Below are positions 46,786-64,000 of a DNA stretch of 64,000 nucleotides, piece by piece. A model generated the notes under the pieces. The model was not told the origin of the DNA and made no database searches. It saw only the letters and a list, made by a program, of their open reading frames with translations. Origin of the DNA: Pseudobdellovibrionaceae bacterium (GTDB lineage: Bacteria > Bdellovibrionota > Bdellovibrionia > Bdellovibrionales > Bdellovibrionaceae); the NCBI GenBank assembly GCA_019637955.1, contig JAHBUS010000002.1, positions 1-64,000 on the forward strand. Reading direction: 5' to 3'. Every line of letters starts with the position of its first letter. The first letter of the stretch is position 1. The position numbers were made by a program, and so were the translations under genes.

Positions 46786-46797
46786 TCGTGCATCTCC

Positions 46798-47546: not shown

Positions 47547-47572
47547 GTCGTCGTCCTTTTCCGTAAAGATGA

Positions 47573-47591
47573 GGGCGGGCACGGCCCGCCC
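47573..47591 (-). other. GC stem-loop after ardA
   Basis: GGGCGGGC, loop ACG, GCCCGCCC: a perfect 8-bp stem between the ardA stop (47600) and the next start (47546). No T-run follows on the minus strand, so it looks more like an mRNA-processing or partial attenuator element than a full terminator. Confidence 0.5.
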
Positions 47592-47599
47592 CTCTCCGG

Positions 47600-49024: not shown

Positions 49025-49870
49025 CTAACTGCCTGACTCGATCCTTCGGGCCATTTCCGCGAAGGAAATTTCCCTTTTTCCATTCGTCATGGGAGCTTCA
49101 AGGCCTTTCAAAAGGAAATCTTCGAGCGAGCAAAAGTAAATTCCGTTCACAACTTTTGCCAACCGCACTTCGAGGTCTTTCCGTTTCACCTCTTCCAGAG
49201 TTTCCATCAGGCTTTTCCTCAATGCCTCGTCTTTGACGAGGTAAAGGGTCAGATTCCATTTCTTGGCGAGAAGATGAGCGCGGAAAATTCTTCCGTAGCG
49301 ACGTTTGGATTTCTGCGTCAGCTCCAATTCGAGCGCGATCTTCATGGACTGCTTTGGCGTTCGCTGAACGAAAACGGCGTCGGGGATGAGTTGCGCGGTT
49401 TGCCAGTTGGAGGGCCGATTTTTTCCATCGGCGATTTCGGCGCGGAGTTCGTGGTCCATCTTGAAGCCGCCGATCAGCGGGCTTTTCTCCAAGATCCGGC
49501 GCACGTCGATGAGCTTTTGGTCGTGCTCGAATTGCGTCTTGTACCCGCGCCGCGAGAGCGACACGTCTTGGTTCGGCGACTGCTCTTTAAGGAGACGTTT
49601 TCCTTTCAGGCTCAGGCGGTAGCCGAGAAGCCTGTCTCCGTCGCCCGTGACCTTTTCCACAAAACCGCTTTCGGTCAAAATCCGAAGCCTGCGATTGTGC
49701 GCCCGCGATCCCTCTGTTGAATCCCAAAAATAGAATTTCACCCGCGAGGGACTGACGCATCCGTGTTCGCCCAAGAAACCCAACAGCCGAAGATCCCGCT
49801 CCGTCAGCCGAGCACGGCGGGGCTTTTTCGCCCCGCACCCGTCCGCCGTCTTATCTCCAGCGTAAGTCAC
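49025..49870 (-). CDS. Replication-relaxation-like protein (ICE-2)
   Basis: 281 residues from GTG 49870, overlapping the lipoprotein stop (GTGA) and 8 bp after GGGAG. Winged helix (LTERDLRLLGFLGEHGCVSPSRVKFYF ... RRLRILTESGFVEKV) followed by a PD-(D/E)xK-like half (LIPDAVFVQRTPKQSMKIALELELTQKSKRRYGRIF). Same architecture as the ICE-1 protein at 40473, and again immediately before a nested inverted repeat. Best candidate for the DNA-processing factor of this element. Confidence 0.72.
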   Translation of the reverse strand: MTYAGDKTADGCGAKKPRRARLTERDLRLLGFLGEHGCVSPSRVKFYFWDSTEGSRAHNRRLRILTESGFVEKVTGDGDRLLGYRLSLKGKRLLKEQSPNQDVSLSRRGYKTQFEHDQKLIDVRRILEKSPLIGGFKMDHELRAEIADGKNRPSNWQTAQLIPDAVFVQRTPKQSMKIALELELTQKSKRRYGRIFRAHLLAKKWNLTLYLVKDEALRKSLMETLEEVKRKDLEVRLAKVVNGIYFCSLEDFLLKGLEAPMTNGKREISFAEMARRIESGS

Positions 49871-50313
49871 TTTCCTTTCTCCCACCGGGCGGGTTCGGCG
49901 ATTTCGTACTCAAAGTGCGCCGGAACGAAAACTCCGTCCTTCACTTGGTCTTCGACATATCGGACGCGCACTTGGGCAGGCCGGAGCTTTGGCCCCTTGT
50001 CCTTGTCATTGCCGCTTCCGAACATCTCCAGATTCGGCGCTCCGTAGGTAACGCCGGACTGGAGCTTCTTTTTCTCCTGGTCCTTAAAGCTTTGATCTCC
50101 GATCAGAGCGCCGAGAGCTCCGCCCGCCGCCGCCCCGACGAGAAGACCCGTTGTCCTTTGCTCCGAGCTTCCGTCTTTGCTTGCGAGGCTTCCAATACTT
50201 CCACCCACAACCGATCCGATGACGCCGCCAAGAAGTCTTGATTTCTCGACTGTGGCGCATCCGGTGAACAGAAGCGAAAGAGTTAGGCCGAGAGGAATGA
50301 TTTTTCTGAGCAT
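49867..50313 (-). CDS. Glycine-zipper lipoprotein (ICE-2)
   Basis: 148 residues. Signal MLRKIIPLGLTLSLLFTGC with lipobox FTGC, then two glycine-zipper stretches (LLGGVIGSVVGGSIGSLA; LLVGAAAGGALGALIGD) and a soluble C-terminus (RVRYVEDQVKDGVFVPAHFEYEIAEPARW). Similar in plan to the ICE-1 lipoprotein. Possible VirB7-like, surface-exclusion or peptidoglycan-interacting role. Confidence 0.8.
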   Translation of the reverse strand: MLRKIIPLGLTLSLLFTGCATVEKSRLLGGVIGSVVGGSIGSLASKDGSSEQRTTGLLVGAAAGGALGALIGDQSFKDQEKKKLQSGVTYGAPNLEMFGSGNDKDKGPKLRPAQVRVRYVEDQVKDGVFVPAHFEYEIAEPARWEKGK

Positions 50314-50387
50314 TTATATCTCCCATGAAGGATGATTTTTTCTTGAGAGAGCTCGGCGTTGTTTGGATTCGTAGAGCTATTTTTCTC

Positions 50388-50942
50388 TTACGCATCTGTG
50401 ATGTCCGTTTCCTTTTGCCCCGTTTTCTTCGAGACTTCGGGCATCGCCTTGATGGGCTTTGCGGCCTTTTCCACTATCGGGAGAGCAACCACCGGAAGGC
50501 TCTCCCGCATAGCGAACTTCAGCTTGATGTTCTGAACCCCATCCCGGTGCGGGATACTTACGACGCCAAATCCGGTACCGAGTTTCTTAAAAATGTTCGG
50601 GTGGAAATTGAACTCTTCCACGTCCCGCACAGTGCCGTCGCCCGTCGCGTCTCCGTCCTTGGTCTTTTGTGTGAGCTTCGTTGTGGTCTTCGTCCCAAAG
50701 GTTTTGGCGAAGTGATCGCAGGTTTCGGGATCGTTCATTCGCATGACAACCTTGATATTCGTGTTGGTGAGAACCACGTTTCGGAAGGCTTCGGACACTT
50801 TGTCAAGATCACCGAGAGCCTGGTGCGAGAACACGACGCCCACATTCGCCGAGCGCGATTTATTCAAGAGCGAACCAAATCCCTCGTAAATATAGTCCTG
50901 GAAGTCATCGAGGATGCAGGAGAAGAACTTAGGCTGCCCCAT
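50388..50942 (-). pseudogene. C-terminal part of frameshifted TraD/VirD4-like coupling protein
   Basis: 184 residues from the ATG at 50942 if translated alone. It begins MGQPKFFSCILDDFQDYIYEGFGSLLNKSR, i.e. the Walker B strand and following region of a TraD/VirD4 ATPase, then VGVVFSHQALGDL and NTNIKVVMRMNDPETCDHFAKTFG, all typical of VirD4/TraD. It overlaps the upstream piece (50929-51990) in another frame. Skipping one G of the GGGG at 50937-50940 joins both into one protein of about 535 residues. Confidence 0.8.
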
Positions 50943-51990
50943 CTTTGACACCTCCAAGGCTGATCTGGCGCTTGGAGACGGCATTTTGAAAGCATTGAAG
51001 GACGAGCTTTCCGGTGGCACTCGCCAAGAAAGGAAAGTACATCGTCGGAAGCTGGAAATAGAGAATGTGATTGCCTTGCAGAGCTTCGTCGAATTGGATC
51101 GCGTGGTCTGTCTCTTGGAATAAAACGCTCACGTCGCCCACGGTGAAATGACTGAGCATCGTTTCTAAGCCACTCGTTTTTTCCTCGCGGTCTTTCTCGG
51201 AAAGTTTTAAGAACCGCAAAACGTCACGGCTCAACATCTCGTCGGGGCAAGCGACCGCCCACTTTTCAAGTTCTTCGGCGTCCACCAGGAGGCGATGGAT
51301 GAGGGAAAAGGTCGGCGTTTCTTTTTGCGCGAAGACGAGGCGCACGAGATTCAAAAAAATCCGATACTGGATATTTTTGTAATACTCGTTTTCAAACGCG
51401 AAGCTCGAAAAGACTCTCTCCGTGACCTCCTGCGCGGAGTCGCCCTTCAAGGGATTGAACGACGACGACGGACCTGGATTTGCCAGAGCGAAGAGGCGAA
51501 AATCCGTTTCGCGTCCATAGTGTTTGACGTAAGAATAGAGCTTATTGACGAAGCTCGCATCCGACTTGCCATCGAGGATCAAAACGCCCGATCCGTTTTT
51601 GATGTCCTGGATCGCCCAAGGCAGGATCACGCTTTCCGATTTCCCGGCGTTTGTTGTTCCGATCACCTGGGCGTGCATGGTGCGGAAAGACTCTTTCAGA
51701 TGAATCTCCCGCCCGCCATCGACGGCTTTTCCGAGAAACACGGAAGAGCTGTCCTCTTCCGTAATGCTCTCTTCTTGCTTGAGAAGCGCGTACTTATTCC
51801 AGAGCTTCAAGATCCCCAGCACAACCAAAGCGCCGGCGGTCGTCCAAAGCCCCATGAGCACAGGCCCACGCAAATGTTTCCAGAGGTATTCGATCTGAGG
51901 ACTTATGCGCCAGAGAAACGCCACCAGAAGGATGAAGCCAAACAGGTAAAGCTCGGAAAACTCCGAGCTCGGTTTCTTCTTATCCTTCAT
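50929..51990 (-). pseudogene. virD4: N-terminal part of frameshifted TraD/VirD4-like coupling protein
   Basis: 353 residues. Two transmembrane helices (about 10-30 and 43-62), then EESITEEDSSSVFLGK and Walker A VIGTTNAGKSESVILPWAI near 112, ILDGKSDASFVNKLYSYV, and a helical all-alpha domain. It ends ISLGGVKDGAA-stop just where Walker B should come. The missing ATPase half lies in the other frame (50388-50942). Either a recent one-base insertion in a G-run, a sequencing error, or programmed +1 slippage. Its start overlaps the virB10 stop by 4 bp. Confidence 0.85.
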
Positions 51991-52913
51991 TGGTGGAACT
52001 CCTGTTCTAAGAACAGGACGAACCGCTTTCCCGCAGGAACTCGGATCGAGGCCCCTCCGCTTCCTATATTTTCGGCTTCGGCTTTGGCGTAGGACTCCGC
52101 GGACTGCGTGACACCATTCAAGAGGCCGTTCTTGACGCTTCCTTCTTCCATCGGGAGGCCAAGGCCACCACTTGCTTTGCGGTCTTTAAGGCCCTGGGCG
52201 AGTCCACCGACGAAGGTTCCGACGAGTTGGCTTGCGTGCCGGCGAAAGGTCCCAGAGGAGAAATCCCCTGTAAGGCCGCTGGAACCGTCCATCATTGCCG
52301 CCAGCCCCGAGATCGAGAACTGTTCACCCTCGGGGAAAACCAGCGTGTGGAAACGAACCTGAAGGCGCTCCCTCGTGGCATCGAGCTGGCCATTTCCGAT
52401 CACTCGCGTTCCTTTTGGGATCACGAGGGCCTGAAGGGGGCTAAGAACATCATCAAGGACGACGGCCTGGACAGGGCTGTTATTATCCGTACTCTCGACT
52501 TTGCCCAAGAGCTGCACCTGGAATACGGAACCCACAGGGAGAGCGTCGGCTGAGTTTTCCCCACGTTTGATAATCTGGGATGCGTTTCGCTGGCGCGAGG
52601 AAAACGAGCCACCGCCACCGCGACGATCCGGCATCGAGGAAAGAGTCAGGTAGCGGTCTGACTCTGCCTTCGGCCCAGAGTGCGGCATGGACTCGGCGGC
52701 GGCCGTCTGATCCTTCAAGTCCTTCTTCGCTTCCGTCTCTAGCCGCTCACGTTTGGATTGCCCGTCAAAGACGGCACCCAGCACGAACACCAAAACGACG
52801 AGAACGCCAAAAACGATCCCGACTGTTTTAAGGTTGATCGTGCGTTTTTTGCTATAAACATGCTCCTCGTTCAGAAAAAAGTCGGCGACGTTCTTACGTC
52901 CGACTCTGCTCAC
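51987..52913 (-). CDS. virB10: VirB10/TrbI-like core protein (T4SS-2)
   Basis: 308 residues from GTG 52913, 7 bp after GGAGG. Transmembrane helix near residues 30-52 (TVGIVFGVLVVLVFVLGAVF), a linker, then the beta domain: NSADALPVGSVFQVQLLGKVESTDNNSPVQAVVLDDV ... IPKGTRVIGNGQLDATRERLQVRFHTLVFPEGEQFSISGLA, and the closing IRVPAGKRFVLFLEQEF. The IPKGTRVIG and V-P-x-G-x-x-F-x-L-F end are VirB10/TrbI signatures. Confidence 0.9.
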   Translation of the reverse strand: MSRVGRKNVADFFLNEEHVYSKKRTINLKTVGIVFGVLVVLVFVLGAVFDGQSKRERLETEAKKDLKDQTAAAESMPHSGPKAESDRYLTLSSMPDRRGGGGSFSSRQRNASQIIKRGENSADALPVGSVFQVQLLGKVESTDNNSPVQAVVLDDVLSPLQALVIPKGTRVIGNGQLDATRERLQVRFHTLVFPEGEQFSISGLAAMMDGSSGLTGDFSSGTFRRHASQLVGTFVGGLAQGLKDRKASGGLGLPMEEGSVKNGLLNGVTQSAESYAKAEAENIGSGGASIRVPAGKRFVLFLEQEFHQ

Positions 52914-52932
52914 TAGGAGTCCTCCTTTCGGC

Positions 52933-53679
52933 TCAAGGCCTGCGCCCAAAGTCAGCGGAGAACGGCATTGAAAGCGGTTTGCCTGTCTTGGTTTTTAGCT
53001 CCAAGCGGAGCGGGGTTTTGGGGTCCATCTGATCCATGCGGAGAAGCAGAAGGACGCTTGAAAATTTCCGGGTCTTGTCTTTGCCTGATTCAACGAAGAG
53101 GTTATCGAGGGGAATGGCCCTTTTGCCTTGGAAGACGGAAAGGCTTTCTCTTCCAACCGCGACGTCTTCCTTGGTGCTGGATACCTCGAATTTCAAAACA
53201 AGCGTTGAGCGGCTGATTGGTGTCGAAACCGTGATAAGTGTTAGCTTCAAGTTTCCGATCGCCACCGTGCGCCCAATCTTTCTTGTGAGAAGATCGTCCA
53301 CCAACACGGGCTTTGCCATTTTCGCGGTAGGGGGCGGCGACGTGCGAATCTGGGCGTAAACGATATTGTCGTGCCTTCCGACTCCCGCAAGAAGTTGGAA
53401 GTTGAACTGGCCTTCCTTAGTGAACAAAAAGAGATTCGTCTTTCCGCGAGAAACCATCGGCTTGATCGCCACCATGTTTTTCAGGTACTCGACTTTGAAT
53501 CCGTCTTGATCGCCGATGAGCCCAGGTTGAGGGTGCGAGTCGAACTTGATAAGGGTTGAAAACCCAGGCTCGACGAACACCGTTTCCATATCACTGTCAG
53601 AGAGGCGCACGACCCGCATGGATTTGGCCCATGCCTCAACGGGAGGAAAGGCCATAAGGATCAAAAGAAGAATCCGCAT
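52933..53679 (-). CDS. virB9: VirB9-like outer-membrane complex protein (T4SS-2)
   Basis: 248 residues from ATG 53679 after AAAAGGAGG. Signal peptide MRILLLILMAFPPVEAWA. Beta-rich mature part (METVFVEPGFSTLIKFDSHPQPGLIGDQDGFKVEYLKNMVAIKPMVSRGKTNLFLFTKEG) similar in plan to VirB9/TraK N-domains and to the ICE-1 protein at 37271. It follows virB8 and precedes virB10 by 19 bp. Confidence 0.8.
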   Translation of the reverse strand: MRILLLILMAFPPVEAWAKSMRVVRLSDSDMETVFVEPGFSTLIKFDSHPQPGLIGDQDGFKVEYLKNMVAIKPMVSRGKTNLFLFTKEGQFNFQLLAGVGRHDNIVYAQIRTSPPPTAKMAKPVLVDDLLTRKIGRTVAIGNLKLTLITVSTPISRSTLVLKFEVSSTKEDVAVGRESLSVFQGKRAIPLDNLFVESGKDKTRKFSSVLLLLRMDQMDPKTPLRLELKTKTGKPLSMPFSADFGRRP

Positions 53680-53701
53680 AGGGGGCCTCCTTTTCTGGTT
53701 T

Positions 53702-54292
53702 TTAGGGCGACATGAGTTTTTCACTCGTGATGTAGATGCCTTCAGGGTTGTTGGCGGTGCGGTCGCCTAGGGTGAATCCAATCTCAAGATCGAGTCCTTG
53801 CGCCGCCCGCACCCCACTGACGATGAGGATACGGTCGGCTCGGACCTGGGCCGTTTTTGCCTTCATGTTGAGCTTTGGCTCATCGGGAAAGAACTTCTGT
53901 GCGATTTGCTTTTCCTTGGAAATGCGAATCTGCTCGGCGGTCGCCACGAGGTACTTTTCCCGGTAGTCGCTTGCGACGTAAAAGCTCGCGGCTTTGGTTT
54001 TCGCTTCAACCGTGTTCCAGTCCCAATTGTGCCGGGTCTTCAAGTAATTGATGATCGCCCGAATGATCTCTCGCGTGAGTTGTTCGGCGTCAGGTTCCCC
54101 GACATCGAGCTTCTGCGTGACCTCTTTGGAAATTGCGATAAGAACGGGGCCGCGCAAAGCGAGGACCGAAATCACCACGAGTTGAACGGAGAGAACGGCG
54201 GCGAGGACGAGAACCATGTATTTCAGGATGCGGTTTTGCGCTTCTTCGTCGGCCCACACCTCGAACCAACGGCGCTGAATCTTGCGAATCAT
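53702..54292 (-). CDS. virB8: VirB8-like protein (T4SS-2)
   Basis: 196 residues from ATG 54292 (AAAGGC upstream). One transmembrane helix near 25-48 (YMVLVLAAVLSVQLVVISVLAL), then a periplasmic domain (EQLTREIIRAIINYLKTRHNWDWNTVEAKTKAASFYVASDYREKYLVATAEQ). The layout is that of VirB8/TraE. Position between virB6 and virB9 supports the call. Confidence 0.8.
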   Translation of the reverse strand: MIRKIQRRWFEVWADEEAQNRILKYMVLVLAAVLSVQLVVISVLALRGPVLIAISKEVTQKLDVGEPDAEQLTREIIRAIINYLKTRHNWDWNTVEAKTKAASFYVASDYREKYLVATAEQIRISKEKQIAQKFFPDEPKLNMKAKTAQVRADRILIVSGVRAAQGLDLEIGFTLGDRTANNPEGIYITSEKLMSP

Positions 54293-54311
54293 ATTTTGCC
54301 TTTCGTTTTTT

Positions 54312-55304
54312 TTACGCCCTAGGAGGCGGTAATTGCGGAGGCGGCGGAGGAAGGTAGATCGTAGAGGCTTGGATTTGCCGAGGCCCGACATCTCTCATTG
54401 GTGGCGGAGGCGGTGGATTTCCACCCATCGAAAATCCTCCACCATGAGCGCCCATCTTGTTGTTCATCATCTTGCCGAAGTTCATGAGGTTCCCCATCTC
54501 GCCGCCGAGTAATTTCTTTGCCGCTAAGACTTTTGCGGGAGCCGCGACCATCAAAGCCGCTGTTGCACCGGAAAGACCGCCTGCCATCGACGTGAAACTG
54601 CCGCTAAAGAGCGAGTGAACAACAAGCGGAGTGCCGACCATGCAGATCGCGATGACGAAATTCATCACCGTTATGGTGAGGTAATTTCCGTCCATCGCGT
54701 ACCACGTCCCGAACGGCAGAGCCTTTATCATGACCGACAAAACGCTCCAGACCACTTTCCACGAAGCAATCTCGAACATCGAACGAAAGAGGTTCACGGT
54801 GACTTGCGACGAGAACAGATGAAACAAGAGCAGAATCGGAGCCATGATAGACAAAAAGATCCAAGAGAAATGATAAACGGCGACCATGATATATCTGGCG
54901 CAATAGAGGATCGCAAAAGAGCAGTAGGACAAAACCGCCATCATCAAGTCGTCAAAGGCCAACACCAAAGACATCGAACTGCGTGGATAACTTTGGGCTT
55001 TCTCTCCTGCCATTTGCAGGAAAGAATCAAGCCCGCTCATGTTGTCGATCCTCTCGGCAATCCCGCTCGTGATGAACAGCATGGCGTCCGTGATCTCGGC
55101 GAATCCCGCGAGAAGCAGGGTCGCTACGAATGCCCTTTTCACCTTGTCGATAAACTCAGGACTCCCTGCCGGATTCTGAAGCCAAACAATCACCACCGAC
55201 GCCATGAAGAAGACCGGAAGCAGCATGTAGTAGATGTCTCGCATCTCGTTGTGGACCTTGAAGGCCACCGAGCCGAGCGCCGCGAACTGATTTAACTGAT
55301 CCAC
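54312..55304 (-). CDS. virB6: VirB6-like polytopic protein with proline-rich tail (T4SS-2)
   Basis: 330 residues; GTG start 9 bp after GGAGG. Five or six hydrophobic segments (about 25-45, 58-78, 115-140, 148-170, 195-240), with the Trp-centred FEIASWKVVWSVLSVMIKALPF helix matching VQVVIWKILWSILGV of the ICE-1 VirB6. The C-terminus is strikingly proline-rich (NPPPPPPMRDVG; YLPPPPPQLPPPRA), absent from the ICE-1 homologue, and may bind a partner. Confidence 0.85.
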   Translation of the reverse strand: MDQLNQFAALGSVAFKVHNEMRDIYYMLLPVFFMASVVIVWLQNPAGSPEFIDKVKRAFVATLLLAGFAEITDAMLFITSGIAERIDNMSGLDSFLQMAGEKAQSYPRSSMSLVLAFDDLMMAVLSYCSFAILYCARYIMVAVYHFSWIFLSIMAPILLLFHLFSSQVTVNLFRSMFEIASWKVVWSVLSVMIKALPFGTWYAMDGNYLTITVMNFVIAICMVGTPLVVHSLFSGSFTSMAGGLSGATAALMVAAPAKVLAAKKLLGGEMGNLMNFGKMMNNKMGAHGGGFSMGGNPPPPPPMRDVGPRQIQASTIYLPPPPPQLPPPRA

Positions 55305-55358
55305 TCAGCAAACCCTCCTTTAAGAAAGAAGTGATCGCCTGGATGGGCTTGGATTTTC

Positions 55359-56060
55359 CTAGTGGGAACCGGAGAGCGACGGCAGATCAAAGCCGCCCTT
55401 GGCGGCTTGAAGGACCTGGCCCAGCTCGTTGTACTGATCGCGGAACTGCTCGGATTGGAGTTTGGACTTTCGGTTTTGCATGGCGAGCTGTTCGCTCTGT
55501 ACTTTGAGGAGGGCCGCGTTTGTGCGAAGAATCTGATTCAAGACGTGAATCGTGACCCCTTGCGCTTGCAGGCTTGCTTTCGCGGCCCCTTGCGGGCTCG
55601 CCACGTTCGCATATTGCTTCATGCGCTCGGCCTCGGGATCAACACCGTCGGCGTACCGGAAGGCGTCGTTGTGAAGCTGGATGCTCTCGGCCACCGTCAT
55701 ATCGTGCGTGCTCTGCGTTTGCGCTTCGGCTGTCATGGGGATTCTCCCATAGAGCCGTTCCATCTGGCGTAGGATGTCGTTCACGTCGTTCAAGTTCCAA
55801 TTTCCGCTTTTCATGGTGCGGTTCAGGGTTTCTTGCAACCGCATGGCATCCCGCAAGCCGTTGTTGATGTCCCTCATAAAGTTCAGCGAGTCGCGGCCAT
55901 TGCCAAGAATCGACTGAAGCTGCGTTACTTGTTGGATGGCCTGCGCGAGAATCTGCATAAGGATGGGAATATCGGCCCCCCAGAAATCCGCCTTGGCCGA
56001 AGGCGAAATCGTGAGGGCCAAGGCCGTCACTAAGGACAAGAATCCCTTTCTGATCTTCAC
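55359..56060 (-). CDS. virB5: VirB5/TrbJ-like protein (T4SS-2)
   Basis: 233 residues. Signal peptide MKIRKGFLSLVTALALTISPSAKA; then a helical secreted protein (PILMQILAQAIQQVTQLQSILGNG ... TIHVLNQILRTNAALLKVQSEQLAMQNRK). The last segment corresponds to LQSEQIAMANK in the ICE-1 homologue. ATG overlaps the virB4 stop (ATGA). Confidence 0.85.
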   Translation of the reverse strand: MKIRKGFLSLVTALALTISPSAKADFWGADIPILMQILAQAIQQVTQLQSILGNGRDSLNFMRDINNGLRDAMRLQETLNRTMKSGNWNLNDVNDILRQMERLYGRIPMTAEAQTQSTHDMTVAESIQLHNDAFRYADGVDPEAERMKQYANVASPQGAAKASLQAQGVTIHVLNQILRTNAALLKVQSEQLAMQNRKSKLQSEQFRDQYNELGQVLQAAKGGFDLPSLSGSH

Positions 56061-58630
56061 GCGCTCTCCTTCGTTTGAAGGTTGCTCATGGCGACGCCTC
56101 GCGGGTACTTCGTGGCGAGATCGAATATCACTTCCGAAATGCTCTTTGACGGGTTCTCCTCTCTGTACTTTTCGTAAACGCTGTTATCATCCCGGTCACT
56201 CGTCGCCAGCCAATACTCAAGCGGAGTCGGAAAAGCGCGGATTACAGCGCGGTCTTCATTGGCGATCATGTAGGCTTCCGAGAAAACGCCCTTTTGCTGG
56301 CGAAGAGTCGAAATGAGCGCCATTTCCTGATCGTTGAGTTTCAGGACCCGGCGCACGGGTTCAAGATCGCCTCGTTGAAGCAGAATGACCTTGGTGGGCG
56401 TGTTGCCTAAGATCGCGGGACCAATCGGATGCGCGACAATCTCGTCCAGCCCTTGGGTGACGAAAGTGATGCCCCCGAGTGCTTTTCGCAGGGTTCGCAC
56501 CCAGTACTCCATCGCGTGCGAGGCAGGTCCTTTCAACAGCTCCCAGCATTCGTCCATGTAAATGCGCTTCTTACGCCCGAAGTATTGCGGAAGCCGCGAT
56601 TCCACCTTACCCACGATAAAATCCGTGATGATGAGGGTCATCACAGCCTGAAGATCGGGGTAAGAGGAAAGGCCCTTCAAGTCGAAGACGACGAAGTCCG
56701 AGCTCAGATCCAGTTCGTTCGGGCGATCCAAGAGTCGCCCGTAAGAACGCTCGCCCGTCCACGGATAGAGCATCTTGGCGAAGTCTTGCAGTTCCTTCTC
56801 TTTCGATTTTTCCAGCGTTTTGCGAAGGTCGGAGAGAACGGGCACTCGCGCATCTATTGCCCGCACCGCCTTGTAGGTCTCGATAACCGCTTCTTCGAGG
56901 AGGCTGCGCGAGAGTTTTGGGAGCTTGTCACCTTCCTCGTCCGTGAACATACATTCGAGAAGCGAGACGAGAAATTTCACCTTCTGCGAAGAAGGCTCGA
57001 CCTCATCACTAGGAAGCTCGAACGGATTGATGACCTTCCGGGTTTCTCCTTCGGTGGCGGGGCCGATCTCGATGTACTGGCCGGACATGAACTCGCAAAT
57101 TTTCTTGTACGATCCACCGATGTCGATAACGAAGACGATGGGCTTTTGGGTCATCGCCTGAGTCATAATGATGTTGTTCAAGAAACTTTTTCCGGCTCCC
57201 GAAGAACCCGTGAAAAGCGCATTGAACGATGGCAGTCGGGCCGTATCGAAAGGGTCATAGGCCACAAGGCCCGCCGTGCGGTTGTGAAACAAACAAACGG
57301 GGCTGACACCTTGACCGGAGTAGGGCTCAAAGATCGGTAAGAAATCGGCGAGGTTGTCGGTCTTAACCCGCTTCGCCCGAACGCTCGCCACGTTCCCGAG
57401 TGGCAGCATGGTCTTGAACACCTTGAATCCTGCGACTGTCTCGGCCAGTCCTTCCGCGCCCGATAGCTCGCGGAATTTCTGCAAAGCCGTTTTCGTCATT
57501 GTGGTCAGTTCGTCTTCGGTCTTGGCTCGAAGAAGGAGTGACGTCTGGAAGTAAAAAATCTTTTGCCCCGTGTTGATGAGCTCGCGTAAAAGTTCTTCCG
57601 TGGAATTGAGCTGCGCTTCGGATTCGAGATCAGTCGCACGGCCTCCGTGGGACGCTGACATGGAGTGCGCCATGCGCCGCTTTTGCTGAAGGCTCGAAAG
57701 CTCCTTCGATTGCTCTGGCACCTTCACATGGACATCGAGCCAGTAGTGAAACGGAAGCTGCGTGAAAACGGCCATCATCGCCGCGTGGGTTTCTTCAGGC
57801 AGCGTTTTCAGGGTCAAAATCCGGTGGTAGTAGCCGTCGAAGAAGAAACTCTCTGCGCCCTGAATCAGATCCGAGAAAACGAGCTGTTCTCTCGGGCTTT
57901 GCAACGCAAGCTCGGGGACGATCTTCAACTCCTCGCCTTGAAATTCCTGATCGCGGTGCGCGGTCTGGAATTTCGGCGCGGAAACGTCTTTCGAGCGGGA
58001 GGGATTCAGGAACTTGTAGATCAGCTCCCAGGTTTCACTCTCTGAAAGAGGTTCGGCACCGATCCCCATACTCGTAAGCACTGCTTGGCAGCTATCAGCA
58101 CTTTGCCGGAGCTCCCGTTCGGCCTTTTCATGCTCTTCCTGACGCACGGCCTGGAATTTCTTAGGCGAGCTAAAAAACGACGAGAAGATTGAGGCGTTTT
58201 TCTTCCCCTCAAAGCGTTGGCAAAGGAAGAGATACAGCGAGGAACGCGAGAGTGCCCCGCTTTCCATCTGGGCCTTCAGAGCGTCGGCGCGGGCCTCGGC
58301 AATCCATCGGATGCCGGGGATGTCGCCGGAAAGAGCCTTGTGTTTCTCGATGATCTCCGAAAAATCGGAGTTCACCTGAGTCACGAAACTCAGCTCCAGG
58401 CCGTCCGGCAGACCGTTCAGGAAAGAGCGGAGGTCTTGGGCGAGACGGTTGATGCGGTTTGCATCCCACGTTTCTACCGAAGCACCTTTCAGGCGAAAGC
58501 CAAGGCCCAGGCTTCCGTCGCTGAGGGCGACTATGCCGTTTAAGAAGTCCCAATACGGAAGTTCTTTTGCGAGAGAGTGTTCAGCCTGAAATTCGTTGAA
58601 GTCGGAAAATAGCCGATTACGTTTCGTCAT
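56057..58630 (-). CDS. virB4: VirB4-like T4SS ATPase (T4SS-2)
   Basis: 857 residues from ATG 58630 after GAGGAGG. N-terminal domain (YWDFLNGIVALSDGSLGLGFRLKG), then the motor: Walker A LFTGSSGAGKSFLNNIIM near 475, Walker B RIYMDECWELLKG near 685, and GGITFVTQGLDEIVAHPIGPAILGN. Intact and full length. It overlaps virB3 by 14 bp and virB5 by 4 bp. Confidence 0.95.
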   Translation of the reverse strand: MTKRNRLFSDFNEFQAEHSLAKELPYWDFLNGIVALSDGSLGLGFRLKGASVETWDANRINRLAQDLRSFLNGLPDGLELSFVTQVNSDFSEIIEKHKALSGDIPGIRWIAEARADALKAQMESGALSRSSLYLFLCQRFEGKKNASIFSSFFSSPKKFQAVRQEEHEKAERELRQSADSCQAVLTSMGIGAEPLSESETWELIYKFLNPSRSKDVSAPKFQTAHRDQEFQGEELKIVPELALQSPREQLVFSDLIQGAESFFFDGYYHRILTLKTLPEETHAAMMAVFTQLPFHYWLDVHVKVPEQSKELSSLQQKRRMAHSMSASHGGRATDLESEAQLNSTEELLRELINTGQKIFYFQTSLLLRAKTEDELTTMTKTALQKFRELSGAEGLAETVAGFKVFKTMLPLGNVASVRAKRVKTDNLADFLPIFEPYSGQGVSPVCLFHNRTAGLVAYDPFDTARLPSFNALFTGSSGAGKSFLNNIIMTQAMTQKPIVFVIDIGGSYKKICEFMSGQYIEIGPATEGETRKVINPFELPSDEVEPSSQKVKFLVSLLECMFTDEEGDKLPKLSRSLLEEAVIETYKAVRAIDARVPVLSDLRKTLEKSKEKELQDFAKMLYPWTGERSYGRLLDRPNELDLSSDFVVFDLKGLSSYPDLQAVMTLIITDFIVGKVESRLPQYFGRKKRIYMDECWELLKGPASHAMEYWVRTLRKALGGITFVTQGLDEIVAHPIGPAILGNTPTKVILLQRGDLEPVRRVLKLNDQEMALISTLRQQKGVFSEAYMIANEDRAVIRAFPTPLEYWLATSDRDDNSVYEKYREENPSKSISEVIFDLATKYPRGVAMSNLQTKESA

Positions 58631-58940
58631 CGGGTGCCTCCTCTTGGAAGTAAGACCGGTAATCAAGGTCAGGCATCGAAGGAGAGAGGACGCTTGGGCT
58701 CACCATGTACTCGCCATAGTGCTGAAGGTAGCCATCGGGCTTTCCGCGCTTGACGAAGTAGAGAACGCCCGCGAGCGCGGTTGTTCCTCCCCATACGAGC
58801 AGGAATTTCAGCCGGGTGTGCCCGAAGACGAGGTTCGAGACAGCGAGATACAAAAAGACGAGCAGCAAGTCCGCGAGTTCAAAGCCAAAGAGCCGCGCCT
58901 TCTTTTCAAGAGCACGCGGTACCTTCGAGTGAAAGAGCAT
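58617..58940 (-). CDS. virB3: VirB3-like protein (T4SS-2)
   Basis: 107 residues from ATG 58940 (AAAGGAG upstream). Cytosolic start HSKVPRALEKKARLFGFELADLL, a hydrophobic hairpin (LLLVFLYLAVSNLVFG ... FLLVWGGTTALAGVLYF) and VKRGKPDGYLQHYGEYM, the same GKPxGYL motif as the ICE-1 VirB3. Placed between virB2 and virB4. Confidence 0.87.
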   Translation of the reverse strand: MLFHSKVPRALEKKARLFGFELADLLLVFLYLAVSNLVFGHTRLKFLLVWGGTTALAGVLYFVKRGKPDGYLQHYGEYMVSPSVLSPSMPDLDYRSYFQEEAPDDET

Positions 58941-58996
58941 GAGGACTCCTTTCTTCAAGAAACGAAGGCCGGAAAATGCTCCGGCCTCGTTGGTCG

Positions 58997-59299
58997 TTAG
59001 CGGACGGCATCAGAAATGAAGTCGATAATTGCTTGGCTTCCGAACCCGAGTGCTGCGCCTATCAAGGCGTAGGTGACGTGCCTCTTCGAGTCAGGGTGGC
59101 CCGTCATGTAGCTGAACGATGCGACGAGCAATCCGATCACGGAAAGTAATGGGAGTACGACATTGGAGAGCTGCGAACGGATATTTTCGAGAGAGCCACG
59201 AAAATCGGCGAAGGCGAGATCAGGGAATAGAGCGATGACCAGCGTGGGAAGGAAAACGGACAGGAGTGCGACGGCATCCTGTTTGGAAATGGAACGCAT
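58997..59299 (-). CDS. virB2: VirB2-like pilin precursor (T4SS-2)
   Basis: 100 residues from ATG 59299 after GGGAGGAAAG. Long signal peptide ending near LAFA, then two hydrophobic helices (NVVLPLLSVIGLLVASFSYMTG and VTYALIGAALGFGSQAIIDFI) split by a short charged loop HPDSKRH, like GDASAKAR in the ICE-1 pilin. This is the expected pilin architecture. Confidence 0.88.
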   Translation of the reverse strand: MRSISKQDAVALLSVFLPTLVIALFPDLAFADFRGSLENIRSQLSNVVLPLLSVIGLLVASFSYMTGHPDSKRHVTYALIGAALGFGSQAIIDFISDAVR

Positions 59300-59360
59300 A
59301 CTTTCCTCCCGAGAAAGCAATGATTGGGAGTGGTATGCGTGGAGGGGCCTTGTAAGGGAC

Positions 59361-59414
59361 GCCCGAAGGCACGCGGGAGCCTGAGTCTTCGAGACTCCGC
59401 GCGCGCCCTCGGGC
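59361..59414 (-). other. Long stem-loop upstream of virB2 (T4SS-2)
   Basis: Outer stem GCCCGA (59361-59366)/TCGGGC (59409-59414), inner stem GAGTCT (59383-59388), loop TCG, AGACTC (59392-59397), with further partial pairing between. It lies between the stop of the 140-aa secreted protein and the pilin start. No T-run follows; it could stabilise or process the mRNA so that pilin is made in excess. Confidence 0.55.
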
Positions 59415-59423
59415 TTGGAGGGA

Positions 59424-59846
59424 CTACTGACGCTTCAACGTGATGAAGTTGTTGAGCTGGATTTCGACCGGATATTTCTTGCTCGTCACGACGCTCATGC
59501 TGTCTTCCGACACCATGAGCTCGAAGTAGAGATTTTCCGTTCTCTCCCTCAGATCGACGAGGTGAAACTTCCTGCTGCTCAGGTCTTTGATGACCTCAAA
59601 ATCCGACATTTCTTGTCTGTTGATGGGTTCACCTTCGCAGGTGGCCGTGCCATTGAAAAACTCGATCCGGTAAAGGAGCGAGCGATCCACCCCATATACC
59701 ATCTCGAATTTCTTGGACGTGGGCACACCGTTGAAGATGGTCCATTTCACGCACTCGGAGTAGGTGCCCGCGAGTTCGTTCACCCCCTCCGCTTGCGCCG
59801 CCGTTGACAGGACGAGAGCCGCCACCATCAAAATGATCTTCTTCAT
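59424..59846 (-). CDS. Exported protein of T4SS-2 operon
   Basis: 140 residues with a clear signal peptide MKKIILMVAALVLSTAAQA. The mature part is a beta-rich small domain (AGTYSECVKWTIFNGVPTSKKFEMVYGVDRSLLYRIEFFNGTATCEGEPI) with two cysteines that could pair (about 32 and 70). It resembles small lipocalin-like sheets, but no family is recognised. No counterpart is seen in T4SS-1. Confidence 0.7.
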   Translation of the reverse strand: MKKIILMVAALVLSTAAQAEGVNELAGTYSECVKWTIFNGVPTSKKFEMVYGVDRSLLYRIEFFNGTATCEGEPINRQEMSDFEVIKDLSSRKFHLVDLRERTENLYFELMVSEDSMSVVTSKKYPVEIQLNNFITLKRQ

Positions 59847-59895
59847 ATTTCCTCTTTTCTCGCCCTTTCTTTGGGCGTGGTTTGGTTGTTCAAAT

Positions 59896-60324
59896 TTAAG
59901 CCGCGGGGTTCGACTGCGTTTCGAGTTCCTTGGTCGTGGCCCCGTGAAAATTCAGGTACAAATCCACGCACGCCAGAAGGTCGAAATCGAGCTTCATGAT
60001 GCCGGAGTTTTGATCCCCGAGGAGCTTCGCCGTGCCGACGCGGTTCCAGAAATACTTTTTCCCCGGAAGGCTAGACGGTTCACGAGTCAGGATCACGAAA
60101 TCAAACGGACGACCCGCCTCTTGTTCAGGCAAGAGATAGAACTGATCCTTCAGAAACATTCGGAGATACAGCGTGTAGGTTGTCGATCCCTCGTAGAGCG
60201 TCGAATGCCCCACGGAATTGATCTTTTCGATCTTGCCGCTATCGTCGATGCGGCCTTTGAAAACGTCGAAACGATAGACTTTGACTTTGTTCCCCTGCAT
60301 TTGGTTTTGGCTTGCGATATTCAT
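59896..60324 (-). CDS. Conserved-position protein of T4SS-2 operon, function unknown
   Basis: 142 residues; ATG follows GAGGGGAAAAT. Beta-rich (VKVYRFDVFKGRIDDSGKIEKINSVGHSTLYEGSTTYTLYLRMFLKDQFYLLP ... FDFVILTREPSSLPGKKYFWNRVG). No signal peptide, so cytosolic. Family not recognised. It sits two genes upstream of virB2 in the same operon. Confidence 0.7.
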   Translation of the reverse strand: MNIASQNQMQGNKVKVYRFDVFKGRIDDSGKIEKINSVGHSTLYEGSTTYTLYLRMFLKDQFYLLPEQEAGRPFDFVILTREPSSLPGKKYFWNRVGTAKLLGDQNSGIMKLDFDLLACVDLYLNFHGATTKELETQSNPAA

Positions 60325-60361
60325 ATTTTCCCCTCTTCTTGCATGGCGCTTAGGCCACGCT

Positions 60362-60628
60362 TTACGATTCCATGATTTTGAGCATCGAATGTTTCGACCT
60401 TGAAAATGCAGGGTGTTTCAAACAAAACTCGCGGAGCATCCGAAGTGCTCGCGTGAGCAGAGCTTCCGTGGAGCGAAGGCTTAGGCCGAGCGTTTCCGCG
60501 ATCTCGACCGTTTCCATGTTCTGCCAGAAGCGGAGGTCCACAACAGCCGCGTGAAGGCCCGGAAGCCTCTCCATAGCCGCCCGAATGATGGCGTAGTCCG
60601 TCGGTGTAAATAAGTTCGCGCATCTCAT
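60362..60628 (-). CDS. Stand-alone sigma70 region 4-like protein
   Basis: 88 residues; ATG after GGGGGAG. The sequence ERLPGLHAAVVDLRFWQNMETVEIAETLGLSLRSTEALLTRALRMLREF is region 4 of a sigma70/ECF factor (the HTH that reads the -35 box). Region 2 is absent, so it cannot act as a full sigma factor; it may be an anti-/co-sigma or activator-like DNA-binding protein. Located in the leader of the T4SS-2 operon. Confidence 0.8.
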   Translation of the reverse strand: MRCANLFTPTDYAIIRAAMERLPGLHAAVVDLRFWQNMETVEIAETLGLSLRSTEALLTRALRMLREFCLKHPAFSRSKHSMLKIMES

Positions 60629-60649
60629 TGGCTCCCCCTCTTGATGCGG

Positions 60650-60883
60650 TTATAGCCAACGGTTCAAATGAACCGGAGGGCGTCTTTCAGGCTCGCGCTC
60701 GTTGCGAAACTCCAGATCACGCCAAGTCTCGTAGTCGAGGCTCTGGCCCACGGATGGACTGAAGAGTTTCCCGAGTGTGCGCCGGATTTTCTTAAAAACG
60801 CTTTTCTTACCTGCCTCATTCGTGACGAGGCGTGGACGATTTTGGATTCCTGTTTTACTGATCGTTTGCGTGGCGGCGTTCAT
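60650..60883 (-). CDS. Small basic protein, function unknown
   Basis: 77 residues from ATG 60883, 8 bp after AGAAAGG; GTG 60892 is an alternative. A Lys/Arg-rich middle (KKSVFKKIRRTLGKLFSP) and a charged end (DYETWRDLEFRNEREPERRPP). No domain recognised. It lies between the zinc-ribbon and sigma-region-4 genes. Confidence 0.5.
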   Translation of the reverse strand: MNAATQTISKTGIQNRPRLVTNEAGKKSVFKKIRRTLGKLFSPSVGQSLDYETWRDLEFRNEREPERRPPVHLNRWL

Positions 60884-60910
60884 GTCTTTCACCTTTCTTT
60901 CCCCTTTGTC

Positions 60911-61222
60911 TTACGCGCTGACTTCGACCGGGCGGGGTTCTGCCTGGTAGTCATCGGTTTTGGCCGCAGGATTCATTGGCGTGACGGGAGTCAGTTCCGG
61001 CTTCGTCAGAAAATGCTCCTTGAAGGCTACTTCGAGATTGTTCATCAGACCCCGCTCGACGTACTCGATGCAGGTGTCCCAATCGCAGGAGCAGCAAAAC
61101 TGATCCGGCCCTTCGCTCAAAAGATCCTTCGAGCCGCAGACAGGGCACCGCTCACGGCGGGCCAGCGATTTGCGTCGGGTTCGTTCTTTGATCTGTCTCT
61201 GCTGGAGTTGTAGGCTCATCAT
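60911..61222 (-). CDS. Zinc-ribbon protein heading T4SS-2 operon
   Basis: 103 residues; ATG preceded by AGGAGCGAAAAA. Zinc ribbon CPVCGSKDLLSEGPDQFCCSCDWDTC between basic N-terminal (QIKERTRRKSLARRER) and acidic/Pro C-terminal parts. As in ICE-1, a zinc-ribbon gene opens the T4SS operon. Its start is about 17 bp after the inferred sigma54 transcription start. Confidence 0.75.
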   Translation of the reverse strand: MMSLQLQQRQIKERTRRKSLARRERCPVCGSKDLLSEGPDQFCCSCDWDTCIEYVERGLMNNLEVAFKEHFLTKPELTPVTPMNPAAKTDDYQAEPRPVEVSA

Positions 61223-61249
61223 TTTTTCGCTCCTCCTGGCCTTCTATAG

Positions 61250-61265
61250 GGCACGAACAGTGCCA
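61250..61265 (-). promoter_or_regulatory. Sigma54-like promoter of T4SS-2 operon
   Basis: On the minus strand TGGCACTGTTCGTGCC (61265 to 61250): perfect TGGCAC, exactly 10 bp between GG and GC, with GTGC instead of TTGC at -12. Transcription would start near 61239. The sequence is also an inverted repeat (GGCAC/GTGCC), so a hairpin or operator reading remains possible. Confidence 0.6.
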
Positions 61266-61354
61266 GGATTTTTGAGAGGCGAAAAATCGGAGCTAAATGC
61301 GTGACGTGGAAAAGGAATTTCGGTTTTCTGATTTAGCCGCGGATTCGGGCGAGC

Positions 61355-61463
61355 CTATGAAATTTCAAACGATTCCTCCCGGCGAATTGAGAGAAAACGA
61401 TGCTAGCAAAGGGACTTAGGTCATCTCGTTTGAGTGTTTGTGGGGTCTATGAAAATTCAAACG
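61355..61463. promoter_or_regulatory. Two 17-bp direct repeats upstream of T4SS-2 promoter
   Basis: CTATGAAATTTCAAACG (61355-61371) and CTATGAAAATTCAAACG (61447-61463) differ at one position and are 92 bp apart. A further CGTTTGA (61428-61434) faces the second copy. They lie about 120 and 215 bp upstream of the inferred sigma54 start, the usual enhancer distance. The sequence differs from the ICE-1 palindromes, so a different regulator should bind. Confidence 0.65.
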
Positions 61464-61468
61464 GCAAA

Positions 61469-63013
61469 TTACGCCGTCGTCACGGGAAATGAAACGATCA
61501 GGTCTTTAGAGAGGAGCTTGCAGCCAGCCGTTACGCACTCGGTTTGGATTTCGGCTTCATAGGCGCGGCCCGTGACGAGTACCGCATGGGCAGGGTTCGG
61601 GAGTTCGCGGATCGCGGCAAGCCCCGTGCGCTTACCTTTGCCGAAGTCATGGTCGATCAGAAAGCGGTCGCTTGGACCAATCTCCGAAGCGGCCGGCAAG
61701 TCTTCCGCTGCACCAAAGAATCGCGTGCGAATCGCTTTAGGAAGTTTTATCTGCCATGCTTGTAGCATGTATGGTTGGTCGTCGCAGATAAAGAGCGTTC
61801 CGTCCTTGGGGACCACTAGGCTGTCACAGTACCAAGTCGGCGTCGGTTCCTGCGGAAACATGAGACTGACCGTGGTTCCCTTTCCAAGTTCGGACTCGAT
61901 GGTGAGGCCCCCTTGGGCCTCTTCCATCAGTTTTTCAGCGTAGTACAGGCCAAGGCCCGAGCCGTTTTCCTTGCCGTGAGTGAAACCCTTTTCACGGACC
62001 TTAGGTAGTAGCTCCGGCGCAATGCCTTTCCCGTTATCCTGTATCGAAACCGCCACCATGCTGCCGTCGGCCTCAATATCAATCTCGATTCGTCCATCAG
62101 AACCGATGGCTTGGAGAGCATTGTCGAGGAGATTTGAAAGCGTGGCTTTCAAGTCCGGTCCGCTGATGCGCGTGTAGGCGCAGGGAGAATTGCTTTTGAT
62201 TTCAAGCAAAGCAGAACTTTGAAGCAGGGACTTTTCTTCAAGGATTTGCCGTGCGAGCGCGACGGCATCAAAGATGGCCGTTGGCGAAGGCACGGCCTGG
62301 GGAACAGGCTCGCCGCCACCTTCCATCTCCGACAGAATTTCTTCGATACGATGAGCGGCGCGGTGGCCCTGATCCTTGAGTGCCAGCGACTCGGTCGAGG
62401 TCGCCGTGAAGTAGGCGTTCAGCACCGCGAGCGGAGAACGGATGTTATGGCGAACCTTTCCCACAAGGTCTTTGAGAATTTTTGAGTTCTGGAAGGCGAG
62501 CTCTTTTTCAAGTTCGTAGCTGAGTCTTCTTTTCGCACTCGTAAACGGAAACGCGATCAGAGCGACGACAAAAATCCAAACCAGGATAGCATATCCCGCA
62601 AGCTCAAAGCGCGAGTAGATGAAAGAGAGTGCGCCGACCTGAGTTTCCCGTTCGTCGTCGAGACGAATGACAGATCTGACCTCGGCATGAAGAAGCCTAT
62701 CCCAAAGGCTTCGGTTCCTGTACTCGATGGGAGCCACCGTCGGCGGAAGGGTTACGATCCTGCGTCCTTCGCTATCGTACTGCGTGATGCTCTGAAAGGA
62801 TGCGAACCTGATGCCGTTCATGATCTGGAGCTCGCCCCTGGTATCTCCGGCCTGAAGAGTCTTTCTCAAGAAGAGGGTCGCTTGATCGGCCAGTTCTTGC
62901 TTGATCGAATTGTTCCAAATGATCGAGACGCCGAGCAGACCGAGCAATAGCAACGCCGCCGTTACGACGTATCGACGAATCAGGCGATTGAAGGCTAAGT
63001 CCAAATCCTTCAT
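61469..63013 (-). CDS. Hybrid histidine kinase with C-terminal receiver (ICE-2)
   Basis: 514 residues; ATG overlaps the YcaO-2 stop (ATGA). Transmembrane helices at about 16-34 and 139-158 enclose a 105-residue periplasmic sensor. His189 in GKVRHNIRSPLAVLNAY; ATPase domain with N-box LSNLLDNALQAI, G1 QDNGKGIAPE (325-334), G2 NGSGLGLYYAEKL. A receiver follows from about 406: acidic pair Asp411-Asp412, likely phospho-site Asp454 or Asp456 in FLIDHDFGKG, Thr481 and Lys503. Unlike the ICE-1 kinase, no response-regulator gene follows; the regulator may lie beyond the right edge. Confidence 0.92.
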   Translation of the reverse strand: MKDLDLAFNRLIRRYVVTAALLLLGLLGVSIIWNNSIKQELADQATLFLRKTLQAGDTRGELQIMNGIRFASFQSITQYDSEGRRIVTLPPTVAPIEYRNRSLWDRLLHAEVRSVIRLDDERETQVGALSFIYSRFELAGYAILVWIFVVALIAFPFTSAKRRLSYELEKELAFQNSKILKDLVGKVRHNIRSPLAVLNAYFTATSTESLALKDQGHRAAHRIEEILSEMEGGGEPVPQAVPSPTAIFDAVALARQILEEKSLLQSSALLEIKSNSPCAYTRISGPDLKATLSNLLDNALQAIGSDGRIEIDIEADGSMVAVSIQDNGKGIAPELLPKVREKGFTHGKENGSGLGLYYAEKLMEEAQGGLTIESELGKGTTVSLMFPQEPTPTWYCDSLVVPKDGTLFICDDQPYMLQAWQIKLPKAIRTRFFGAAEDLPAASEIGPSDRFLIDHDFGKGKRTGLAAIRELPNPAHAVLVTGRAYEAEIQTECVTAGCKLLSKDLIVSFPVTTA

Positions 63014-63930
63014 GCCAGAAACTCCGGTTGGGAGAAAACCGCTTCGCTCGAATATCGAGAGAACACCAAGGGACAGTCGCCGAAGGCATCGTCAGTTTGT
63101 AACCGATCAAACTTACCATCGGGAATCACGACATCCGAAGCCGTCCGATTAAGAGAAGCCACGAATTCTTGAAAATAGGAAGTGTCTCGCAGGAGGGCTT
63201 GCCGGTTCTGACTGGTTGGGCGCTCGATCTTCAGGAAAGCCTCGCGGCTGATCGACGCGGGTTTAGTGTGAAGGCAAAACTCCAGGTTCCGCAGACATTC
63301 GAGCCGTGCCTTGTCCTGGGCGGCCTCGATGCTTGAGGCTGCGCCAAGCCCCAGGATACCGCCAAAGGCAGGCTCCGCATTTTTGCCGTTTGCAAGACAA
63401 AGAGCGACCGACACGCCGGAAGGCGAAGCGAGACGGTAAAGGCCGATCTCAACACCGAGGCGAGCGTAGCGTGCGCCGACGGCCGGATCTATCGACAGCG
63501 GGTTCAGTGCGATTCCGCGGCTCACTTGGTCTGAGAAGCAAAACCGCTCAACGTATTCAAGTCGTGCGTTCTCTTGGGCCAACTCCATATTGATATGGCC
63601 CGCGACTCCAAGTGAGCCGATCCCGTGGCGGAAACAGGTTGCTCGCTCCACCGCTTCGCAAACAGCCTTCGCAAGTGCTGTGTTTGCGACGGGATCAGAG
63701 CCGCGGCCAACGAATTTTTCACCAAAGATGGAAATGGAAACCCGAAGGTCGCGCCATCCTGGGAAGATGGCTTTGATCCATAACAGCTCTTGAACCCGAA
63801 GATCGAAGCGTGTCGCGTTCTGAAGTATCCATGCGGTCAGTTCCTCTTGACGAGCCATATCGGATTGTTTGCAAAAAGCTGTGAGAGTTCGATTTTCCAT
63901 CCCTTTTTTGCAAGGGCGACATAAGGGCAC
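63010..63930 (-). CDS. YcaO-domain protein 2 (ICE-2)
   Basis: 306 residues from GTG 63930; ATG 63900 or 63858 are alternatives, and only 63858 reduces overlap with the small frame upstream. YcaO features: LAKAVCEAVERATCFRHG (first ExxER), ENARLEYVERFCFSDQ (second motif, ERF instead of ERD), SSIEAAQDKARLECLRN, and GVSVALCLANGKNAEP. It is shorter and more diverged than YcaO-1; loss of the second-motif Asp could weaken ATP/Mg binding. Directly coupled to the hybrid kinase, it repeats the YcaO-kinase pairing of ICE-1. Confidence 0.85.
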   Translation of the reverse strand: MPLCRPCKKGMENRTLTAFCKQSDMARQEELTAWILQNATRFDLRVQELLWIKAIFPGWRDLRVSISIFGEKFVGRGSDPVANTALAKAVCEAVERATCFRHGIGSLGVAGHINMELAQENARLEYVERFCFSDQVSRGIALNPLSIDPAVGARYARLGVEIGLYRLASPSGVSVALCLANGKNAEPAFGGILGLGAASSIEAAQDKARLECLRNLEFCLHTKPASISREAFLKIERPTSQNRQALLRDTSYFQEFVASLNRTASDVVIPDGKFDRLQTDDAFGDCPLVFSRYSSEAVFSQPEFLA

Positions 63931-63989
63931 GACGCCAACGGCACGAAGACCCCTTTTTGAAGGGACGACTCGTGAATAGACTTGAGCAT
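63837..63989 (-). CDS. Possible small peptide gene before YcaO-2
   Basis: A 50-residue frame from ATG 63989 (MLKSIHESSLQKGVFVPLAS, then CPYVALAKKGWK ...), open upstream to the window edge without a stop. It overlaps YcaO-2 in another frame, by only 22 bp if YcaO-2 starts at 63858. One cysteine in a SCPY context. It could be the precursor peptide, the tail of a longer protein or a chance frame; no ribosome-binding site is visible in the 11 bases available. Confidence 0.25.
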   Translation of the reverse strand: MLKSIHESSLQKGVFVPLASCPYVALAKKGWKIELSQLFANNPIWLVKRN

Positions 63990-64000
63990 TTTTAGGCGTT

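Follow-up and report, generated by a model that had tools for sequence, protein, structure and literature searches.

Why should a gene for a YcaO enzyme and a gene for a sensor kinase lie directly before the operon of a conjugative type IV secretion system (T4SS)? The question is raised by a 64,000-nucleotide stretch of the genome of a Pseudobdellovibrionaceae bacterium (the window; positions 1-64000 of contig C7 in a genome of 3.77 Mb), in which the gene that we call YcaO-2 overlaps a kinase gene that adjoins the T4SS-2 operon. The preliminary description of this DNA took this locus, together with a second one of the same arrangement, as a sign that YcaO, kinase and T4SS are functionally associated. 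We found that each of the genome's four YcaO genes belongs to a five-gene unit, encoding a peptide, a YcaO, a binding protein, a kinase and a sigma54 regulator. On balance, we favour the reading that this unit is an autoinducing module whose ribosomal peptide signal is modified by YcaO, exported and sensed, and that it is coupled here to a conjugative T4SS.

YcaO-2 (63010-63858, minus strand; 282 residues) matches the Pfam YcaO domain at 37.8 bits against a cut-off of 25.7. It shares four base pairs (63010-63013, ATGA) with the histidine kinase gene (61469-63013, minus strand; 514 residues), whose product has two membrane segments, an H-box, a HATPase_c domain (Pfam, E 3.5e-22) and a receiver-like domain at the C-terminus. 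We call the kinase hybrid because this last part, about 110 residues that Pfam does not report, aligns with receiver domains in a profile-profile comparison (probability 96%, E 2.6e-9). The T4SS-2 operon (49025-61222) follows downstream on the same minus strand. The overlap, the hybrid kinase and the adjoining T4SS were thus as first described. The sequence to the right of the window had been named as the place to look for a regulator, a binding protein and a small exported protein, and all three are there, again on the minus strand. The OppA-like binding protein SBP-2 has its 3' end within the window (63840-64000), overlapping YcaO-2, and continues to about C7 65330; the exported peptide gene (about C7 65394-65666) encodes 90 residues with an N-terminal signal-like segment and a tail ending in DSSICY; and sigma54-dependent response regulator 2 lies at C7 65688-67067. 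A small helix-turn-helix gene lies beyond the module, and unrelated genes start past it. The order is therefore regulator-peptide-binding protein-YcaO-kinase, and the unit proved to be this five-gene module rather than a YcaO-kinase pair. Rfam and tRNA scans of the window returned no matches.

This unit recurs widely. Among 58 divergent, non-redundant YcaO loci from relatives in the phylum, the binding protein and the kinase are each present in 54, the sigma54 regulator in 37, and a VirB4 gene within 10 kb in 29; L036, L064 and L065 carry more ordinary YcaOs without the unit. A further sample of 20 loci, two from the same family and the rest from elsewhere in the phylum, contained the binding protein in 16, the kinase in 17 and the peptide in 14, and of the 369 genomes and 182 genera of the phylum covered by a profile search, 122 and 77, respectively, contain this YcaO group. 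The source genome and the relatives searched contain 67 YcaO genes and 75 VirB4 genes, and 26 of these YcaO genes have a VirB4 gene within 10 kb; random placement predicts 1.16, with a maximum of 8 in 100,000 simulations, supporting the functional association first proposed. The link follows the regulator, VirB4 being within 10 kb of 29/37 regulator-bearing modules versus 0/21 regulator-less loci (p 2.6e-9). A T4SS adjoins only 1 of the 20 further loci, most of which come from other families of the phylum. Since the module is phylum-wide and usually away from T4SSs outside this order, T4SS control appears to be one use of it. Modules away from a T4SS, most of them without an adjacent regulator, were seen at L008 (contig C8), L038, L041, L044, L045, L050, L185 and L186; the last two share a genome of the same family that is a single contig and may offer an experimental handle. 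T4SS relatives with names, from a search with a subset of VirB4 proteins, belong mostly to Bdellovibrionales, Bacteriovoracaceae and Oligoflexia. Bdellovibrionota-type VirB4 genes also occur on contigs titled Fimbriimonadaceae and Streptomyces griseus (L117, L122), which are likely mis-assigned metagenome bins.

The preliminary description had held that congruent trees of YcaO, kinase and VirB4 would support co-evolution. Within the module they are congruent: YcaO distances correlate with those of the kinase (Mantel r 0.76), the binding protein (0.88) and the regulator (0.70), kinase with binding protein at 0.79, and the four trees mutually agree (0.63-0.88). The expectation was borne out only weakly for VirB4, whose correlation with YcaO is 0.29, and this weak congruence argues that modules have been exchanged among T4SSs. 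Two modules from one genome do not resemble each other more closely than they resemble modules from other genomes. Judged from these comparisons, the module behaves as one heritable unit moved between T4SSs. As linked inheritance alone can yield tree agreement, these correlations establish a unit and not a mechanism. We are nearly certain that the five-gene unit is functional.

The strongest evidence on what the YcaO slot is for comes from loci in which YcaO is replaced. At the T4SS on contig C9 of the source genome, and in relatives, an aKG-HExxH peptide hydroxylase (TIGR04267; 54.9 bits against a cut-off of 40) sits where YcaO would be, between peptide and binding protein. This gene (L086:6212-7042) is the single one of its kind in the genome; others are at L178-L184, and the variant is found in several genera, both with and without a nearby T4SS. 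The exported peptides of the hydroxylase operons form a family of their own, with S, F and D invariant in the tails. That two unrelated peptide-modifying enzymes occupy one slot, each with its own peptide, argues that the slot serves peptide modification. Other gene sets stand before T4SSs. At L108, L121 and L137, upstream of VirB4, the order EamA-radical SAM-Peripla_BP_6-kinase-sigma54 regulator precedes a T4SS of the same clade and may be another variant that makes a signal. L095-L097 combine a regulator, an MFS transporter, a lipoprotein-type binding protein, a kinase and a T4SS, a possible signal variant in which a small peptide was not found. By their gene content, both types would fit a general plan in which these T4SSs are preceded by genes for making and sensing a signal. 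At another T4SS locus, a methyltransferase-like gene lies between kinase and sigma54 regulator (L128:5798-6601).

The candidate precursor is a frequent companion of the binding protein. A signal-peptide-like open reading frame (ORF) of 40-170 residues lies upstream of the binding protein in 48/54 modules versus 26/276 (9.4%) control genes. T4SS-linked binding proteins without YcaO or HExxH have an exported ORF in 5/14 cases (wider scan range; p 1.2e-4), and on inspection these five share no common conserved tail. In 19 YcaO-2-type peptides, M1 and C89 are the sole invariant residues. PSC or PTC is found in 4/6 YcaO-1-type tails, and in a third YcaO clade (S/T)Q(D/E) takes the place of Cys. Cys makes up 4.5% of the last 20 residues versus 1.1% of the remaining mature part (p 8e-7), and several tails among the 20 further loci again bear it, for example GVICFGV, GTVCI and GTICV. 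The tail is repeated within the precursors of L052 and L008. AlphaFold predicts a folded middle (38-74) between a disordered signal segment and a disordered Cys-bearing tail. Comparison of the precursor fold gave weak winged-helix-like matches only (best E 0.27), for which reason we make no claim of leader recognition. A Cys/Ser/Thr-bearing precursor thus stands beside a YcaO, as in clusters for ribosomally synthesized and post-translationally modified peptides (RiPPs). RiPP precursors in which YcaO targets Cys or Ser/Thr have these features, from which we infer that the tail is the substrate; the peptide is likely what YcaO acts on.

Is this peptide also what the binding protein recognizes? 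Along almost its whole length, the binding-protein profile matches both OppA and PrgZ, a pheromone receptor, and an exported peptide, a candidate receptor and signal transduction are together in one unit, as in peptide-pheromone systems. We consider it probable, with somewhat less assurance than for the substrate, that the peptide is the sensed signal. The rival that survives best, though an unlikely one, is that external nutrient or prey peptides are sensed, with YcaO modifying a sensor component and the small exported protein serving as an accessory, for instance as an inhibitor of the kinase in the periplasm. The resemblance of the binding proteins to nutrient-binding OppA/DppA, the co-evolution of kinase and binding protein (r 0.79) and the folded domain of the small protein all fit this explanation; it leaves unexplained, however, the invariant Cys in a disordered tail, the Ser/Thr tails of one YcaO clade, and the joint swap of YcaO and peptide family for another modifying enzyme.

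T4SS-2 contains the VirB4/TraC ATPase (56057-58630), channel proteins (CagX, 52933-53679; TrbI, 51987-52949) and coupling protein (TraG-type pieces, 50388-51990) of a conjugative T4SS, and ends with a Replic_Relax-like gene (49025-49885), all on the minus strand; the only relaxase matches are Replic_Relax-like and below the cut-off (22.0 and 20.7 against 25.3). About 30-45 bp before its first gene (60911-61222, minus strand), a sigma54-like -24/-12 site, CTGGCACTGTTCGTGCC, occupies 61250-61266 on the same strand as GG-N10-GC, the spacing of 10 reported earlier. It scores 12.5 bits on an approximate home-made matrix, a score equalled upstream of only 4.6% of control genes. The site doubles as the inverted repeat GGCAC-N5-GTGCC and therefore may be something other than a sigma54 site. 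Two 17-bp direct repeats, CTATGAAATTTCAAACG (61355-61371) and CTATGAAAATTCAAACG (61447-61463), both on the plus strand, lie 90-200 bp upstream of this promoter as candidate enhancer sites, in line with the enhancer distance noted in the preliminary description; they are identical at 16/17 positions, 92 bp apart, and such a pair is expected by chance at about 8e-5 in 246 bp. No att sites were found around T4SS-2. A tyrosine integrase, a resolvase-type recombinase and an ArdA antirestriction protein lie between the two T4SS regions (42862-48145), as on integrative elements.

The sister module of the window is arranged as YcaO-peptide-binding protein-kinase-regulator, all on the minus strand: YcaO-1 (29351-30379), the Sec-exported candidate precursor peptide 1 (29034-29336; tail SEPSCWTAPY), the OppA-like SBP-1 (27542-29032), histidine kinase 1 (26151-27545) and sigma54-dependent response regulator 1 (24773-26161). 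A sigma54-like site, TTGGCCTCTTCCTTGCT, lies upstream of YcaO-1 (30440-30456, minus strand), and five TTCA-N7-TGAA palindromes, a candidate enhancer, lie within 30538-30825 between YcaO-1 and the divergent T4SS-1 operon with its VirB4 (32650-35052, plus strand); shuffled sequences contain 0.14. Elsewhere in the genome the restricted palindrome form TTCAGRNTTYCTGAA matches once, on C8, and YcaO-1-clade relatives carry 2-4 such sites upstream. As a universal motif the palindrome was rejected, the sites clustering in the YcaO-1 clade only. The two YcaOs, at 17% identity, are as diverged as the earlier reading had them, and their DNA sites differ likewise (palindromes versus 17-bp repeats), which is expected if each regulator reads its own sites. 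A plasmid collection held no relative of YcaO-1, and its binding-protein matches were generic rhizobial binding proteins only. Beside this module lies a possible defence island (10668-23334) with an AAA_5 ATPase, DUF2779 and a Z1-domain protein; the region also encodes a 1102-residue protein resembling a restriction-modification enzyme by eye.

Across loci, sigma54 sites of at least 12 bits precede the first module gene in 14/37 regulator-bearing modules, in none of the regulator-less modules and in 4.6% of control genes, and rpoN is present in the genome. This enrichment before module operons points to positive feedback; a sigma54 site directly before all T4SS operons was considered and rejected. 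The promoter pattern also bears on a second rival. YcaO enzymes often make antimicrobial peptides, and the module could produce a modified antimicrobial peptide carried as cargo of conjugative elements, with binding protein, kinase and regulator forming an autoinduction or immunity circuit. Precursors that are small, Cys-tailed and in places repeated in their tails (L052, L008) would suit such a product. We nevertheless find this improbable: the unit contains no dedicated peptide exporter or immunity protein, modules directly adjoin T4SS promoters with repeated sites, a sigma54 regulator is present in every T4SS-linked module, and autoinduction would itself still be peptide signalling.

YcaO-2 itself looks like a working enzyme. 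Its predicted structure (predicted local distance difference test score 91.8) has YcaO structures as best Foldseek matches (top 6ci7, probability 1.00), and the nearest solved proteins by sequence profile are MJ1094, McbD and another YcaO. The ATP/Mg-type residues E68, E71, R72, E101, E104, R105 and E187 are retained, matched to the published residues by motif and not by mapping, so that the domain, the fold and the acidic residues and arginines for ATP/Mg of the YcaO superfamily are all present. In an alignment of 25 YcaOs, the others being 15-31% identical to YcaO-2, both ExxER motifs are invariant and the third-helix E is kept in 90%. Invariance across such diverged proteins argues for a working ATP-dependent enzyme, as predicted from sequence. 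That YcaO is a passenger or degenerate gene without a role, beside a T4SS under an ordinary three-component sensor, might be read from the lost C-terminal tail of YcaO-2 and from T4SS-linked sensors that have no YcaO, yet it is very improbable given active-site residues invariant in 25 very diverged YcaOs, a gene kept in 54/58 loci, usually overlapping its neighbours, and a YcaO-binding protein tree correlation of 0.88.

Together, these observations suggest the following course for the preferred reading, a self-made peptide signal. In the cytoplasm, the stand-alone YcaO would modify one conserved Cys (in one clade, Ser/Thr) in the short disordered C-terminal tail of the precursor. Export of the precursor would follow by the Sec route, and its tail would be released. 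Above a threshold, the tail would be bound by the binding protein, which would signal through the periplasmic domain of the kinase. The phosphorylated regulator would then bind the repeated enhancer sites and activate the sigma54 promoters of its own module, giving positive feedback, and of the neighbouring conjugative T4SS, turning on DNA transfer. The degrees of confidence worded here are our judgement, not the result of a computation.

Several points weigh against this course. The C-terminal PHPxx of most relatives is absent from YcaO-2 and its closest kin, and a cyclodehydratase partner (E1-like/ocin-ThiF or TfuA) was not found in the unit, nor any TfuA in the genome; stand-alone YcaOs are known. 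Export of a YcaO substrate by Sec would be unusual, the module has no dedicated protease or outer-membrane exporter, and some other peptide could be the ligand. No sigma54 site was recognised in the promoter region of the YcaO-2 module itself, before the regulator, and at most other loci none directly precedes the T4SS; both sigma54 sites and signal peptides were called with home-made scores. For 49 of the 75 VirB4 loci there is no YcaO nearer than 10 kb, agreement of VirB4 trees with the module is weak (Mantel r 0.21-0.29), and linked genes co-evolve even where function does not require it.

In Gram-positive bacteria, conjugation is known to be controlled by peptide signals. On Enterococcus plasmids with pheromone-inducible conjugation, such as pCF10, a conjugative T4SS has beside it, as here, a ribosomal peptide that is exported and a binding protein of the OppA family (the module profile matches PrgZ, 4faj). 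The pCF10 peptide is unmodified and imported to an intracellular repressor in a Gram-positive host, whereas the module has a modifying enzyme, a periplasmic sensor kinase, a sigma54 regulator, no ABC permease and a Gram-negative host. LuxP-LuxQ-LuxO of Vibrio likewise joins a periplasmic binding protein, a hybrid kinase and a sigma54 response regulator, and regulator 2 scores 251 bits against the LuxO model, below the model's cut-off. LuxP, however, binds AI-2 and belongs to another binding-protein family, and that system has no peptide or modifying enzyme and another target. The module works like pheromone-controlled conjugation and like LuxPQ-LuxO, and our comparisons establish membership of neither. 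YcaO-dependent RiPPs of the azol(in)e/thioamide type, such as microcin B17, share the YcaO fold, the ATP-binding residues and a small Cys/Ser/Thr-tailed precursor; the module differs in having no partner protein, a Sec-type signal segment on the precursor and a coupled sensor, and YcaO-2 scores 23.1 against a SagD-family cut-off of 219. The aKG-HExxH peptide hydroxylase RiPPs, e.g. the pfl and pos clusters (PMC12636437), use the enzyme family that fills the YcaO slot of sister modules, which differ from them by coupling the enzyme to a binding protein, a kinase, a sigma54 regulator and several times a T4SS. Searches of the open-access literature for YcaO with Bdellovibrio, conjugation or binding-protein/kinase signalling found no description of the module, though other papers could hold one.

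A modifying enzyme of the RiPP type, an exported peptide with a Cys in its tail and a cascade of binding protein, kinase and sigma54 regulator are thus joined in one heritable unit. The predicted mature signal, a short C-terminal peptide with one modified Cys, is directly testable. At even chances, in our estimate, these loci belong to a phylum-wide form of Gram-negative communication by Sec-exported ribosomal peptides, with exchangeable modifiers (YcaO or aKG-HExxH, and perhaps also radical SAM and other enzymes), a binding protein/kinase/sigma54 readout, and recurrent recruitment by conjugative elements that would make DNA transfer density- or partner-dependent. If true, this would constitute a class of peptide quorum sensing in the predatory-type Gram-negative bacteria of the Bdellovibrionota, would give YcaO and aKG-HExxH enzymes a role in making signals, and would explain when these conjugative elements move.

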